Of a DNA stretch of 64,000 nucleotides, positions 11,027 through 15,476 are shown in pieces. Origin of the DNA: Natronobacterium texcoconense (GTDB lineage Archaea; Halobacteriota; Halobacteria; Halobacteriales; Natrialbaceae); contig NZ_FNLC01000001.1 of assembly GCF_900104065.1 (NCBI RefSeq), positions 124,001 to 188,000 on the forward strand, given 5' to 3'. Below the pieces are notes generated by a model that saw only the letters and a list, made by a program, of their open reading frames with translations, was not told the DNA's origin and ran no database searches. Each line of letters starts with the position of its first letter. Within the stretch, counting starts at the first letter, position 1. Both the position numbers and the translations under genes were made by a program.

Positions 11027-11926
11027 TCAGTCTTCGGGGACGTCTTTCCACTCGCCAATACCCGACGGATCGAGGTGGACGTGTGCGTCGCCGACGTCCT
11101 CGAGGGCGCGCAGACGGTCGACGAGTTCGGATTCGATGTCGTGGGCCTGTCGGAACGGCATGTCGCCGTCGACCTCGACGTGGACCTCGACTTCGAGGAC
11201 GGTGCCGTCGTAGAAGACCGCGAGGTCGTGGACGCCCTCCACGTCGGGGTGGGATCGCAACGTTTCCGCGATCGTCGCTCGCTTCTCGGGGTCGGGCGCG
11301 GCACCGACCAGGTAGTCGAGGTTCTCGCGCCCGATCTCGACGCCCTGGTAGACGACCAGGATGCTGACCAGTCCGCCAGCGATCGGATCGAGCAGTGGCT
11401 GGCCGAGCAGGACGCCGACGATCCCGACGGCGGCGGCGATCGTCGTGTAGATGTCGTTCAGACAGTCGATCGCGAGCGCCTCGAGCGCGGTCGACCCGAG
11501 GTCGGCGTTGACGTACTCGGTGTAGCGATAGACGAGGTACATATCGACCATTGCAAACGCCAGCGCCGCGAGCAGGAGGGGGTTCGCCTCGGGCGGATCG
11601 AGGACGAGCAGCCCCTGGACGGACTCGTACAGCAGCGACAGTCCGAGCACGGCGAGGACGGCCCCGACGAACAGCGCCGTCAGGGGTTCGATCCGGTCGT
11701 GGCCGTGCGGATGTGTGTCGTCCGGTTCGTCGTAGGCACTCTTTCCCCAGACGAGGACGACCACGCTCGAGATCAGGTCCGCGACGGAGTGAGCCGCGTC
11801 CGCGAGCAGAGCGACGCTGCCGAAAACCAGGCCGGCAGCGCCCTCGACGACGATCTTCGCGGCGTTACCGAGAACGTTCACCCACGCTGCCCGCGCGAAC
11901 CCGGTCCTCCCGTCGCGGTCGACCAT
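11027..11926 (-). CDS. cation diffusion facilitator (CDF) family metal efflux transporter
   Basis: A 299-residue protein starting at the ATG at 11926 (MVDRDGRTGF). The longer frame to 11989 is rejected because it would run through an upstream palindrome. The metal site motif in TM2 is DAAHSVAD (residues 43-50, HxxxD type). A second His/Asp set, DDTHPHGHDRIEP, lies in the loop before TM3. Six membrane segments are followed by a cytoplasmic ferredoxin-like domain of about 90 residues with repeated VEVHVEVDGD. It exports Zn, Mn, Fe or Co in exchange for protons; the metal is not determinable. An inverted repeat GTTTAGA-5-TCTAAAC lies 7 bases upstream of the start, suggesting control by a metal-responsive repressor. 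Confidence 0.92.
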   Translation of the reverse strand: MVDRDGRTGFARAAWVNVLGNAAKIVVEGAAGLVFGSVALLADAAHSVADLISSVVVLVWGKSAYDEPDDTHPHGHDRIEPLTALFVGAVLAVLGLSLLYESVQGLLVLDPPEANPLLLAALAFAMVDMYLVYRYTEYVNADLGSTALEALAIDCLNDIYTTIAAAVGIVGVLLGQPLLDPIAGGLVSILVVYQGVEIGRENLDYLVGAAPDPEKRATIAETLRSHPDVEGVHDLAVFYDGTVLEVEVHVEVDGDMPFRQAHDIESELVDRLRALEDVGDAHVHLDPSGIGEWKDVPED

Positions 11927-11932
11927 GAGTTG

Positions 11933-11951
11933 GTTTAGAGAGAGTCTAAAC
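11933..11951. promoter_or_regulatory. inverted repeat, probable operator of the CDF transporter gene
   Basis: GTTTAGA (11933-11939) and TCTAAAC (11945-11951) form a perfect seven-base inverted repeat separated by GAGAG, 7-25 bases upstream of the CDF start. A related TTAGA/TCTAA pair occurs at 14158-14171 before the MgtE unit. The TTAGa/tCTAA character resembles sites of DtxR/MntR-class regulators; that assignment is inferred. Confidence 0.6.
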
Positions 11952-12036
11952 TTGTGTCTTTCCCTATACGAACGGGCCCGGTTCCGCAATCCTCATGGCG
12001 ATCCTGTTAGAATTGTGGGCTAACGCGCTCGACGCC

Positions 12037-12105
12037 GGGCGATGGGGCCCGCCCGATCCAACTGCCGCGCTCGCACGACCTCGTGGGCGGCTGACGGTCC
12101 CTGTC
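12037..12105 (+). ncRNA. fluoride riboswitch (crcB motif)
   Basis: The segment begins GGGCGATGGGGCCCGCCC (12037-12054), continues through AACTGCC (12060-12066), and closes with GGCTGACGGTCCCTG (12089-12103). This matches the crcB-motif layout known from the Thermotoga petrophila fluoride riboswitch: stem 1, the AACTGCC bulge, the GGCTGA segment, and a pseudoknot. Here GGGGCC (12043-12048) can pair with GGTCCC (12096-12101). Between the conserved blocks is an extra hairpin CACG/CGTG (about 12074-12085). The element ends 12 bases before the ATG of the first fluC gene, so fluoride should control expression of the channel pair. It also explains why the start is 12118 and not 11995. Confidence 0.9.
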
Positions 12106-12117
12106 TACCAGTCAGCT

Positions 12118-12531
12118 ATGGCAACGGACCACCCACTCGTTCGACTCGAGACGCTCGCACTGATCGCCATCGGCGGGTTCGCCGGTTCGAACCTCCGCTT
12201 TTTCACGCTCGGCGTGTTCGGCGAGATTCCGGCCGTGTTGCTCGTCAACGTCCTCGGCAGTTTCGCGCTCGGCTTCCTGGTCTACGAGGCCGAGTACGCG
12301 GGGCTCGTCGGGAAACAGTCGCGGGTCGTCTTCACGACCGGCTTTCTCTCCTCGCTGACGACCTACAGTACGTTCGCGGTCCAGACCGCTACCGCTGGGG
12401 ACCCACTGGCCGTGCTCGTCATCGTCGCCGGTAACTACGGTCTCGGCTTCACGGCCGTCATCGCGAGTCGGTCGGTCGCGCGTCGCGTCACTGCCGGCAC
12501 CCGGTCGGCTCCCGGAGGTGAGACGGCGTGA
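12118..12531 (+). CDS. crcB: fluoride channel subunit FluC/CrcB 1
   Basis: A 137-residue four-helix membrane protein. Family motifs are visible: GGFAGSNLRF in helix 1, NVLGSFALGF in helix 2 (the conserved Asn lines the fluoride path), and TTGFLSSLTTYSTFAVQ in helix 3 with the Na+-site break and polar track. FluC exports fluoride passively and protects enolase and pyrophosphatase. The gene overlaps the next crcB by four bases; the two are only moderately similar. This fits a heterodimeric dual-topology pair, as described for organisms with two adjacent crcB genes. The ATG lies 12 bases after the fluoride riboswitch. Confidence 0.95.
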   Translation: MATDHPLVRLETLALIAIGGFAGSNLRFFTLGVFGEIPAVLLVNVLGSFALGFLVYEAEYAGLVGKQSRVVFTTGFLSSLTTYSTFAVQTATAGDPLAVLVIVAGNYGLGFTAVIASRSVARRVTAGTRSAPGGETA

Positions 12532-12932
12532 GCGTCGCCGCCTCGCCGCTGCTCGCCGACGCACTCGCGGTCACGTTCGACCCCGAACCCGCACACCTCG
12601 TCGGCACCGGCGGCGCCATCGGCGCACTGTTGCGCCACTGGGTCTACCTGCAGTTCTCGAGCGAGGAGTTCCCGTGGCCGACGCTCGCGGTGAACGTGAT
12701 CGGCAGTTTCGTCTTCGGGCTGGCAATCTTCGCCGGTGCGGGCGAGTCGGCGATCCAGTTGATCGGCATCGGTGCCTGTGGCTCCTTTACTACGTTCTCG
12801 TCGTTCTCCGTCGAGACCGTCCAGCTGTACGAACGCGGCGACCGGCTGCGTGCGGTCGTAAACGCCGCCGCGAACCTGCTCGTCTCGCTCGCGGCGATCG
12901 GGCTCGCGTGGGGGATCGTCGCCGTCGTCTAA
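12528..12932 (+). CDS. crcB: fluoride channel subunit FluC/CrcB 2
   Basis: A 134-residue partner of the preceding gene, starting at a GTG within the four-base overlap GTGA. Motifs: GGAIGALLRHW (helix 1), NVIGSFVFGLA (helix 2), GACGSFTTFSSFSVET (helix 3), then a fourth helix AANLLVSLAAIGLAWG. Its N-terminus is about 15 residues longer than that of partner 1, which suits an inverted orientation in the membrane. The overlap implies translational coupling and equal production of both halves under the riboswitch. It is convergent with the MgtE gene, whose stop is 17 bases away. Confidence 0.95.
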   Translation: MSVAASPLLADALAVTFDPEPAHLVGTGGAIGALLRHWVYLQFSSEEFPWPTLAVNVIGSFVFGLAIFAGAGESAIQLIGIGACGSFTTFSSFSVETVQLYERGDRLRAVVNAAANLLVSLAAIGLAWGIVAVV

Positions 12933-12948: not shown

Positions 12949-13989
12949 CTACAGCAGTTCCGCGAGCAAGATTGCTGCCAGTCCGAAGTAGATCAACAGT
13001 GCGGTGACGTCCTTGACCGTCGTGATCAGCGGGTCGGATGCGGCGGCCGGGTCGAAGCCCAGTTTGTTCATGAGCCAGGGGATCACGTAGCCGACGATCG
13101 ACGCGACCACACAGACCGTGACGAGGCCGACGAAGACGACCAGCGCCAGCTCGAACGCGTACGGCTCGTTCATCTGCCAGACGTACGCAGCCGAGGCACC
13201 GATACCGCCGATGATCAGGCCGATCAGTAGACCGATCAGCCCCTCGCGGGCGAAGTGACGCATCGCGTTCCGGTCGTCGATCTGTCCCAGCGCCAGCCCA
13301 CGGACGAAGATGGTCGACGCCTGCGTACCGACGTTACCGCCCATGTCCATGATCACCGGGACGAAGAACGCAAGCGCGACGACGCCCTCGAGCGTTTCCT
13401 CGTGATGTTCGATCACGCCACCAGCGAGCAGCCCGCCCGCCAGCGCGACGATGAGCCACGGCAGTCGCAGCCGGAGGATACGCGGAATCGAGGACTCGAG
13501 GATCGCCGTGCTTCGGGACTGCTCGATGTCGGCGAAGGAAAAGCCCGCGCTCTTGAGGATGTCCTCGGTCGCCTCCTCTTCGACGACCTCGATCATGTCG
13601 TCGGTCCGGAGGACGCCGACGAGGACGCCGTCGTCGTCGACGACGGGCATCGCGGGGAAGTCCCGATCGACGATCTCGTCGACAGCGAACTCGGGGTCGG
13701 CGTCGGCGTTGATCGTCACGAGGTCGGTGACCATGTGGTCCTCGACGACGTCGTCCTCGGGAGCGTTGAGCAGTTCCCGGAGGGACATGACGCCGACGAG
13801 TCGCCCCGCGTTGTCGGTGACGTAGAGGTAGTAAACGGTCGTTTCCTCGGCGGTCGGTTCGAACTTGCGGAACTCTTCGATTGCCGGCCCGACGAACGTC
13901 TCCTGGGTGACGGCGACGTACTCGTCGTCGGTGAGTTCGCCGGCGCGATCCGCGTGGAACTCGAGGTCGCGGCCGCTAGCAGCCCCCAT
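12949..13989 (-). CDS. mgtE: MgtE-type magnesium/divalent cation transporter with CBS pair
   Basis: A 346-residue protein from the ATG at 13989, which is preceded by an AGGTGA Shine-Dalgarno six bases upstream. Two CBS domains occupy about residues 40-155 (YLYVTDNAGRLVGVMSLREL; VVDDDGVLVGVLRTDDMIEV). Five membrane helices follow, with the MgtE signature VIMDMGGNVGTQAS (about residue 215) whose Asp lines the Mg2+ pore. The superhelical MgtE_N regulatory domain of bacterial MgtE is almost absent, only about 35 residues preceding the CBS pair. CBS domains normally sense cytosolic Mg2+ and gate the pore. A 55-codon frame overlaps its start, and a TTAGA/TCTAA inverted repeat lies further upstream. 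Confidence 0.93.
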   Translation of the reverse strand: MGAASGRDLEFHADRAGELTDDEYVAVTQETFVGPAIEEFRKFEPTAEETTVYYLYVTDNAGRLVGVMSLRELLNAPEDDVVEDHMVTDLVTINADADPEFAVDEIVDRDFPAMPVVDDDGVLVGVLRTDDMIEVVEEEATEDILKSAGFSFADIEQSRSTAILESSIPRILRLRLPWLIVALAGGLLAGGVIEHHEETLEGVVALAFFVPVIMDMGGNVGTQASTIFVRGLALGQIDDRNAMRHFAREGLIGLLIGLIIGGIGASAAYVWQMNEPYAFELALVVFVGLVTVCVVASIVGYVIPWLMNKLGFDPAAASDPLITTVKDVTALLIYFGLAAILLAELL

Positions 13990-14143
13990 AGGTCTCACCT
14001 CGTACGTGCGACCGGATGACGCCTGCGAACTCGCCCTCGAGAAGGTCGAGAATCAGTTCCTCGAGCGTCGGAAGCCGCTCGCGAGCACGCTCGTTGATTG
14101 CCGTATCGATTCGAAGTCCACTGCTGTGGTTAGTGTCCAGCAT
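13976..14143 (-). CDS. putative 55-residue small protein coupled to mgtE
   Basis: A frame on the minus strand from the ATG at 14143 to a stop at 13976, overlapping the mgtE start by 14 bases. The product is acidic and helical (for example LPTLEELILDLLEGEFAGV) with haloarchaeal codon preferences (GAG, CTC, GAC). The TTAGA/TCTAA inverted repeat lies 15 bases upstream of its ATG, as at the CDF gene, which supports it as the first gene of the mgtE transcript. It could supply part of the missing N-terminal regulatory region in trans, or be a coupling leader. No family recognised. Confidence 0.45.
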   Translation of the reverse strand: MLDTNHSSGLRIDTAINERARERLPTLEELILDLLEGEFAGVIRSHVRGETYGGC

Positions 14144-14327: not shown

Positions 14328-14897
14328 ATGAGCGTTCGGCGCGACTTCTGGTCGATCTATCGCGAGGCACTCCCGATCCTACTGATCGCACTCGGCGGCG
14401 GACTCTTTGCCGGGTTAGTGCTCGAGGGCATCCTCGAGAGCGTCGAGCGGTTCCCAGGGTTGCTCGTGATGGTCCCCGTCTTCCTCGCGACCCGGGGGAA
14501 CGTCTACGGCGCGCTCGGCGGTCGCATCTCGAGTGGACTTCACCAGGGACTGCTCGAGCCACGTTTCGAGCGGAACGAACGGCTCGTCAACGCAGTTCTC
14601 GCCTCGTTCATCAACGGAATCGGCATCTCGATCGTCATCGGCGTCGTCACCTGGCTCGCCTTGCTGGTGATCGGCTGGGAGGTTGCGGCGCTGTACGAAC
14701 TGGTCGGCATCATGTTGATCGCTGGTGTTCTAACGTCGGTCGTCCTCATCTTCGGCCTGCTCGCGCTGATTTTCGCGGGCTACAAGTACGGCTACGACCC
14801 CGACAACCTCGTCGGTCCGATCGTCACCACGCTCGGCGACATCTTCGGGATGCTCTTTATGCTGTTCGCGATCACCTTCGTGGAGGTGCTCGTCTGA
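14328..14897 (+). CDS. MgtE-like membrane-domain protein, half A (SLC41-like pair)
   Basis: A 189-residue protein with five predicted membrane helices, corresponding to the MgtE membrane domain without CBS or N domains. At the position of the MgtE pore signature it has MVPVFLATRGNVYGALGGRISSGL, so the acidic DMGGN residue is replaced by ATRGN. Helix 5 contains DPDNLVGPIVTTLGDIFGMLF, the expected final-helix sequence with Asp residues. The stop codon is immediately followed by the start of half B. Two tandem MgtE domains of this kind form one polypeptide in eukaryotic SLC41 Mg2+ carriers; here they are separate genes, presumably forming a heterodimer. Confidence 0.88.
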   Translation: MSVRRDFWSIYREALPILLIALGGGLFAGLVLEGILESVERFPGLLVMVPVFLATRGNVYGALGGRISSGLHQGLLEPRFERNERLVNAVLASFINGIGISIVIGVVTWLALLVIGWEVAALYELVGIMLIAGVLTSVVLIFGLLALIFAGYKYGYDPDNLVGPIVTTLGDIFGMLFMLFAITFVEVLV

Positions 14898-15476
14898 ATG
14901 GTCGTCACGCAGGGTTCGCTCGGGACGTGGAACTGGAAGTCGATCGTCAGCAACATGTTCCCGCTGCTCGTCGTCCTCTCGATCATCGTCCTCTGGGCGG
15001 GGATCACCCTCGAGGGCGCCGAGGCAATGTTAGAGCAGTACGCCATCCTCGCGGTGATGGTGCCGACGATGGTCGACATGGGCGGAAACCTCGGCGCAAT
15101 CTTGAGTTCGCGACTCTCGACGCGGTTCCACCTGGGGACGACGGAACTCGACCCGACCGACCGCGTGCTGTGGGCGAACGTGGGTGCGATCCTCGCGCTC
15201 GCGGCGACGATCTTCACGGCGCTTGCGATCGGTGCCTACGCGCTGGGGATCGTCATCGGGTCGCCGCTGCCGCTTGCGACCTTGCTTCTCATCTCGCTGG
15301 TCAGCGGGATGTCGGTCGCAGTCATCGCGATCGTCTTCAGTTTCGCAGCGACCTACGGTTCGTATCGGATGGGGATCGACCCCGACGACACGACGATCCC
15401 GATCGTCACCAACGTCGTCGACGTCTTCGGGATGGTCATCTTTATCGGCGTCTCCGCGGTCGTACTCGGATTCTAA
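14898..15476 (+). CDS. MgtE-like membrane-domain protein, half B (SLC41-like pair)
   Basis: A 192-residue five-helix MgtE membrane domain whose ATG directly follows the stop of half A. It keeps the pore signature MVDMGGNLGAILSSRLS and the helix-5 segment DPDDTTIPIVTNVVDVFGM. The intact DMGGN here and its loss in half A suggest functional asymmetry, with this subunit contributing the acidic pore residue. No CBS domain is present, so control must differ from the mgtE gene at 12949-13989. Predicted role: Mg2+ or other divalent cation transport across the cytoplasmic membrane. Confidence 0.9.
   Translation: MVVTQGSLGTWNWKSIVSNMFPLLVVLSIIVLWAGITLEGAEAMLEQYAILAVMVPTMVDMGGNLGAILSSRLSTRFHLGTTELDPTDRVLWANVGAILALAATIFTALAIGAYALGIVIGSPLPLATLLLISLVSGMSVAVIAIVFSFAATYGSYRMGIDPDDTTIPIVTNVVDVFGMVIFIGVSAVVLGF

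Follow-up and report, generated by a model that had tools for sequence, protein, structure and literature searches.

A probable fluoride riboswitch of a divergent, Natrialbaceae-specific type in the fluC1-fluC2 leader of Natronobacterium texcoconense

Introduction

The crcB motif (RF01734), the fluoride riboswitch, was described in 2010 in both bacteria and archaea (PMC2864571). Among the archaea, the fluoride switch of Thermococcus kodakarensis is named in a 2021 paper as the only experimentally determined natural archaeal riboswitch, with a presumably translational output, and the same paper describes a synthetic riboswitch that regulates by start-codon masking in Haloferax (PMC8241225). A search of the open-licence literature returned no report of a haloarchaeal fluoride riboswitch, which does not prove that there is none. 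The locus described here lies in a stretch of 64,000 nucleotides of N. texcoconense DNA (NCBI RefSeq assembly GCF_900104065.1, contig NZ_FNLC01000001.1, positions 124,001 to 188,000), called the window below, whose numbering is used throughout. An initial annotation had proposed for it a fluoride riboswitch controlling two FluC channel genes.

Results

A complete fluoride aptamer spans positions 12037-12103 of the forward strand. Its parts, with position numbers inside the aptamer after PMC8752731 and PMC11077080, and the surrounding features are as follows.

11985-11996, forward strand: BRE/TATA-like promoter motif CGCAATCCTCAT, with transcription start inferred near 12020
12037-12054, forward strand: P1 hairpin, 12037-12041 with 12050-12054 (from the RF01734 alignment and the P1 pairs in 114 leaders, see below)
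12042-12049, forward strand: P1 loop, with A6-U7-G8 at 12042-12044 and the pseudoknot 5' strand at 12044-12049
12062-12092, forward strand: P3 and insert, 12064-12068 with 12087-12091, with a clade-specific insert hairpin at about 12069-12086
12092-12103, forward strand: linchpin and pseudoknot 3' region, with A40 at 12094, C41 at 12095, the pseudoknot 3' strand at 12096-12101 and U48 at 12102
12107-12117, forward strand: proposed start-site mask ACC-A-GUCAGCU, complement of 12089-12098, abutting the AUG
12118-12531, forward strand: fluC1, fluoride channel subunit of 137 aa (PF02537, 58.4 bits, E 1e-15)
12528-12932, forward strand: fluC2, fluoride channel subunit of 134 aa (PF02537, 88.5 bits, E 4.2e-25)

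RF01734 was the only Rfam family to match positions 11900-12300 up to an E value of 10 (cmscan, all of Rfam 15), and the match, at 12029-12110 of the forward strand, covers the full model (1-64) with 27.2 bits and an E value of 1.3e-5. Across the whole 4.0-Mb genome the element is the best of 13 RF01734 matches with an E value of 3.0e-5, the runner-up being at 0.96. The covariance search named as a check in the initial annotation thus gave a significant, full-length match, the best in the genome, but one below the gathering score of 34 bits, an outcome that the initial annotation had listed as refuting its proposal; this score is a curation threshold and not a biological feature. Because of this shortfall a standard Rfam scan, which applies gathering scores, listed in the window only a tRNA and missed the element. 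The P3 insert and clade-specific letters are the likely cause, since relatives with a short insert and the same core score 34.7-38.6 bits. That the sequence is a real fluoride riboswitch aptamer is very nearly certain, and from the sequence we infer a fluoride-responsive function. It is a divergent Natrialbaceae-type variant of the RF01734 kind and is filed outside the over-threshold members, because its score lies below 34 bits and position 41 is not U.

The pseudoknot halves, predicted to be able to pair, do so in the window by five Watson-Crick pairs and one G-U (12044-12049 with 12096-12101, GGGGCC/GGUCCC), and the linchpin pair A40-U48 is present in register, at 12094 and 12102. The claim that all conserved crcB-motif blocks are present stood for P1, P3, pseudoknot and linchpin, but not for U41 beside the linchpin, replaced by C at 12095, nor for the UAC that usually comes after the pseudoknot, which reads UGU. 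The extra hairpin insertion proved real, lying in P3 at about 12069-12086, and the end assigned to the element, 12105, is indeed 12 bases before the first fluC gene, whose AUG is at 12118.

Both downstream genes encode proteins of the CrcB family above the PF02537 (CRCB) cut-off of 32.9 bits, which bears out the two-gene FluC target. FluC1 scored 85.6 bits against NF010820, under the cut-off of 105, and FluC2 81.2 bits against TIGR00494 (cut-off 80.45); solved FluC chains are related to both (FluC1 E 0.0008, FluC2 E 2.5e-11). The genes overlap by four bases (GTGA), an overlap that recurs in nearly all riboswitch loci checked. FluC1 reads TTYSTF where FluC2 reads TTFSSF, and Y83 is near-invariant in 12 haloarchaeal FluC1 proteins; we take this stretch to be the Phe box of the FluC pore, in which the two subunits would thus differ. 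Metal and fluoride transport genes adjoin at this locus, the fluC pair being flanked by a divergent CDF cation efflux gene (11027-11989, reverse strand) and a gene for an MgtE magnesium transporter (12949-13998, reverse strand), and two more reading frames at 14328-15476 of the forward strand resemble MgtE membrane parts by eye.

The closest FluC1 relatives belong by name to the Natrialbaceae (Halobiforma, Natronorubrum, Natrialba, Natrinema, Natronococcus and others), and an RF01734 element lies upstream of fluC1 across this family. Genomes with an RF01734 match over the cut-off numbered 43 of 392 in the order, 8 of 125 in the family and 61 of 392 in the phylum; these sets overlap, and many more elements lie under the cut-off. 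Archaeal examples, which the initial annotation had called far fewer than bacterial ones, are therefore not so rare. Of 161 FluC1 leaders that differ from one another in the first 100 residues of the encoded protein, 114 had intact cores, 14 had traces and 33 were without trace by pattern; because the sample was enriched for riboswitch matches, it gives no prevalence. Masking pairs were counted in 110 leaders and later counts used 114, L013, L023, L112 and L113 having been added by a second pattern. The control for the leader-composition test comprised 30 leaders, without the 14 trace or decay leaders and L207, L208 and L233 (L233 being a truncated contig), and trees were made with FastTree on FluC1 proteins.

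Aptamers partly broken or vanished form a decay series (L155, L183, L191, L192, L196, L265, L160, L267, L271 and L283), and several decayed leaders have GGCCGA for GGCUGA, with U38 changed. Within the window's genus, the window itself and L055 have an intact core, which is gone in L155 (also G380), L160 (also G347) and L265; intact and lost switches inside one genus amount to a ready natural experiment. Two loci of the Natrialbaceae, L016 (G300) and L044 (G117), carry fluoride aptamers of the U41 type with 53.9 and 31.6 bits, downstream of which no intact fluC1 start was recognised by script. In non-haloarchaeal archaea of the same phylum, clusters of seven fluoride-riboswitch matches, each within about 13 kb, occur at G659:C16 70098-82052 and G719:C3 201740-214613, and close divergent pairs are also found, for example G458:C3 26750 and 26902.

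Over the 114 leaders with intact cores the six pseudoknot pairs were 99.7% standard, compared with 92.3% and at most 93.7% in 1000 column shuffles, and with the register slid by one or two bases pairing was only 33-73%. Pair 10-45 is G-C in 73, A-U in 29, G-U in 8 and C-G in 4 of these leaders, and pair 12-43 is C-G in 76 and U-A in 37, with one mismatch; the joint state changed six times on the FluC1 tree for the former and three times for the latter. Judged by these counts, the pseudoknot is kept with compensatory changes in the relatives.

Position 41 is C in all 73 Natrialbaceae-type leaders and U in all 41 other haloarchaeal leaders, a single change on the FluC1 tree, and U41 was also found in each of the 18 loci parsed among 28 other archaeal loci examined. 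The C41 leaders have GGCGATGGGGCCCGCC and GGCTGACGGTCCC in common almost letter for letter, with free variation in inserts and linkers; their cores lie 19-190 nt apart (median 57, above 30 in 61 of 73), as against 17-57 nt (median 21) in U41 leaders. The Rfam gathering score is passed by only 7 of the 73 C41 leaders, every one with a short insert, and 66 go unreported. In Natrialba (L188, L193 and L269) tandem copies of an 8-base repeat, TCGGCTGG, enlarge the P3 insert, with 10.4 copies in L193 (1347-1429) and up to 190 nt between the cores. The continued conservation of the core speaks for function of the C41 aptamers. Codon 2 is GCA in 23 of 28 C41 leaders with U23 but in 16 of 45 with C23 (p 1e-4, uncorrected for the tree), an association for which the tree-corrected pairs were too few.

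In the window, 41 nt separate the end of the promoter-like motif from the aptamer core. Among the 73 C41 leaders 48 have a CGCAANNCTCAT-like motif, which in 32 of them stops 30 nt short of the core, and 25 have none; transcription seems to begin at the aptamer. From the 3' core to the AUG the median is 16-17 nt, and a run of four T is present in none of 73 C41 tails and in 9 of 41 U41 tails. None of the 114 haloarchaeal leaders has a Shine-Dalgarno-like word in the last 20 nt before the start, so that a haloarchaeal mask must cover the start site itself. Such a word lies within 45 nt past the core in 8 of 18 parsed aptamers of non-haloarchaeal archaea (L127-L154, 28 examined).

In folds of the window leader predicted up to 12150, the mask pairs 12089-12098 with 12107-12117 at probabilities of 0.95-0.99 each, except the outermost G-U at 0.19, and UGCC at 12063-12066 pairs with GGCA at 12120-12123 (of AUGGCA) at 0.80-0.88. 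The masking hairpin alone has -13.2 kcal/mol (z -2.66), with 3 of 200 shuffles as good, although the whole leader has no extra stability against shuffles (z 0.04). When 12022-12130 was folded, P1 and the insert hairpin stayed while the P3 base and the pseudoknot opened; with the fold extended to 12150 the 5' strand of P1 paired with coding bases 12132-12142 and P1 was not formed. By nearest-neighbour energies, on which this fold comparison rests, the free ensemble of 12024-12130 has -44.6 kcal/mol, compared with -34.9 kcal/mol when P1 and P3 are imposed and the pseudoknot bases kept single-stranded, and the pseudoknot duplex can contribute up to -9.8 kcal/mol. The two modelled folds of the window leader are near balance, and given these energies the bound fold would compete only with the help of pseudoknot and ligand, as a switch requires.

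Of the 114 intact leaders 65 have the sequence CAGCY directly 5' of the start, as have 5 of the 14 that retain traces and 3 of the 33 that show none (L268, L283 and L291, the first two of which look decayed). A simple rule that fluC1 leaders with no riboswitch lack CAGCC was rejected as too simple: 11 of 51 leaders outside the first pattern carried CAGCC, among them three intact switches missed by that pattern (L023, L112 and L113) and several decayed ones. Compared with the preceding bases, information content jumps at -5 to -1, to 1.1-1.5 bits in C41 and 0.6-1.0 bits in U41 leaders, and CAGCC still stands before the AUG in L040 and L080 despite 97 and 64 nt after the core. Expected pairs between the 3' core and the 9 nt before the AUG were 3.08 versus 0.53 in shuffled sequence for C41 leaders, 3.44 versus 0.73 for U41 leaders and 7.16 versus 1.17 for the window. 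At least three expected masking pairs were found in 49 of 110 leaders (30 of 73 C41 and 19 of 37 U41), leaving 43 of 73 C41 leaders without a predicted mask fold, and Natrialba and many Natrinema leaders fall short. Covariation of position 41 with its partner before the AUG was not found (C41 partners A 9, G 7, C 3, U 1), and the association of CAGCY with the riboswitch was not significant when tree-corrected on the FluC1 tree, a test of little power with too few pairs. In U41 leaders the two cores are equally good partners for the stretch before the AUG (-6.87 kcal/mol for the 5' core, -6.46 kcal/mol for the 3' core). L038 and L223 carry before the AUG CCATCGCC, which is exactly complementary to GGCGATGG, so the other aptamer half may serve for masking in some lineages.

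Discussion

Our preferred reading, which we hold to be probable, is that the fluC1-fluC2 leader contains a fluoride riboswitch of a Natrialbaceae-specific type, with C41 and a variable P3 insert, whose output is most likely translational. An aptamer core, a covarying pseudoknot, clade-wide conservation before fluC1 and a short stretch from aptamer to AUG can all be read from the sequences compared. The view of the initial annotation that the position suits translational control agrees with an AUG at 12118, shortly past the aptamer, and an expression platform can now be proposed. Without ligand, the 3' strand of P3, the linchpin and the pseudoknot strand would pair with GUCAGCU directly 5' of the AUG and bury the start codon. 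The freed UGCC of the P3 5' side would bind GGCA, making the start codon part of a three-way junction whose third arm is the insert hairpin. Fluoride with Mg2+ would stabilise P1, P3, the pseudoknot and the A40-U48 linchpin, and the stabilised aptamer would reclaim its strands, free the start codon and raise FluC synthesis.

An aptamer that works on transcription, by premature termination or polymerase pausing, or on mRNA stability appears improbable. Transcriptional output is described as the best studied mode in bacteria (PMC11077080, PMC13273304), and the start-site mask is not folded in more than half of the leaders. The mask of the window is strongly predicted, however, and a terminator before the gene was ruled out for the C41 tails, which with a median of 16-17 nt between core and AUG have no room for it and lack any run of four T in all 73. 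It is in turn quite unlikely that C41 killed the ligand response and left a relic that is decaying or kept as a constitutive leader only. The change U41A is reported to make the Bacillus cereus fluoride switch unresponsive, and its authors call U41 highly conserved (PMC11077080), the substitution being to A there and to C here; repeated loss, with 21 presence/absence changes on the FluC1 tree and broken copies in existence, points the same way. Against this, a dead element would not hold cores near letter-identical in 73 leaders, where inserts and linkers are free to vary, nor keep its pseudoknot pairing, and in structure 4ENC it is the phosphates of A6, U7, U41 and G42 that bind Mg2+ (PMC11205036), at U41 and G42 only the phosphates.

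A clade-wide change at a ligand-site position might also mean that the aptamer now senses another ligand, but where a relative has an intact core and the start was identified, fluoride channel genes lie downstream, and we regard a change of ligand as highly improbable. The chance that the stretch is coding, as an N-terminal extension of FluC1 from ATG 11995, is negligible. Although a frame of 178 aa is open from 11995 through the aptamer in the window, this ATG sits at the end of the promoter-like motif, an in-frame stop falls between aptamer and AUG in 32 of 73 C41 and 20 of 41 U41 leaders, and the distance from core to AUG in C41 leaders, taken modulo 3, divides 22/22/29; the stops and mixed lengths in relatives led to its rejection.

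To return to the fluoride riboswitch with translational output, a further and doubtful step would be to see in the Natrialbaceae elements a subclass of their own, in which C41 gives the ligand site an altered affinity or selectivity and switching proceeds by exchange of both P3 strands, the 3' strand taking the bases before the AUG and the 5' UGCC taking AUGGCA, with the insert hairpin as a fixed third arm. If the preferred reading is true, haloarchaea have here a natural riboswitch for which a mechanism independent of any Shine-Dalgarno sequence is proposed, and a ligand-site position deemed highly conserved changed once and was then fixed in a whole lineage. It would also account for Rfam seeing about a tenth of these elements.

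With the crcB motif of RF01734 the element shares P1, P3, the six-pair pseudoknot, A6-U7-G8, A40 and U48 in register and its place before fluC; it differs in its score of 27.2 bits (gathering score 34), in C41, in UGU for UAC and in a P3 insert of variable length. The T. kodakarensis switch (Speed et al. 2018, via PMC8241225) is likewise archaeal and presumed translational, a likeness by description, but belongs to a hyperthermophile and lies upstream of TK0513, not directly of crcB (PMC4247193). The fluoride switches of Pseudomonas syringae and Burkholderia pseudomallei are described as having a translational output, as proposed here, although they are bacterial (PMC13273304); the haloarchaeal leaders differ further in that 0 of 114 has a Shine-Dalgarno word near the start. 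In the theophylline riboswitch E of Haloferax volcanii the AUG is masked in the ligand-free state, as it would be here, but that switch is synthetic, responds to another ligand and masks a Shine-Dalgarno sequence as well (PMC8241225).
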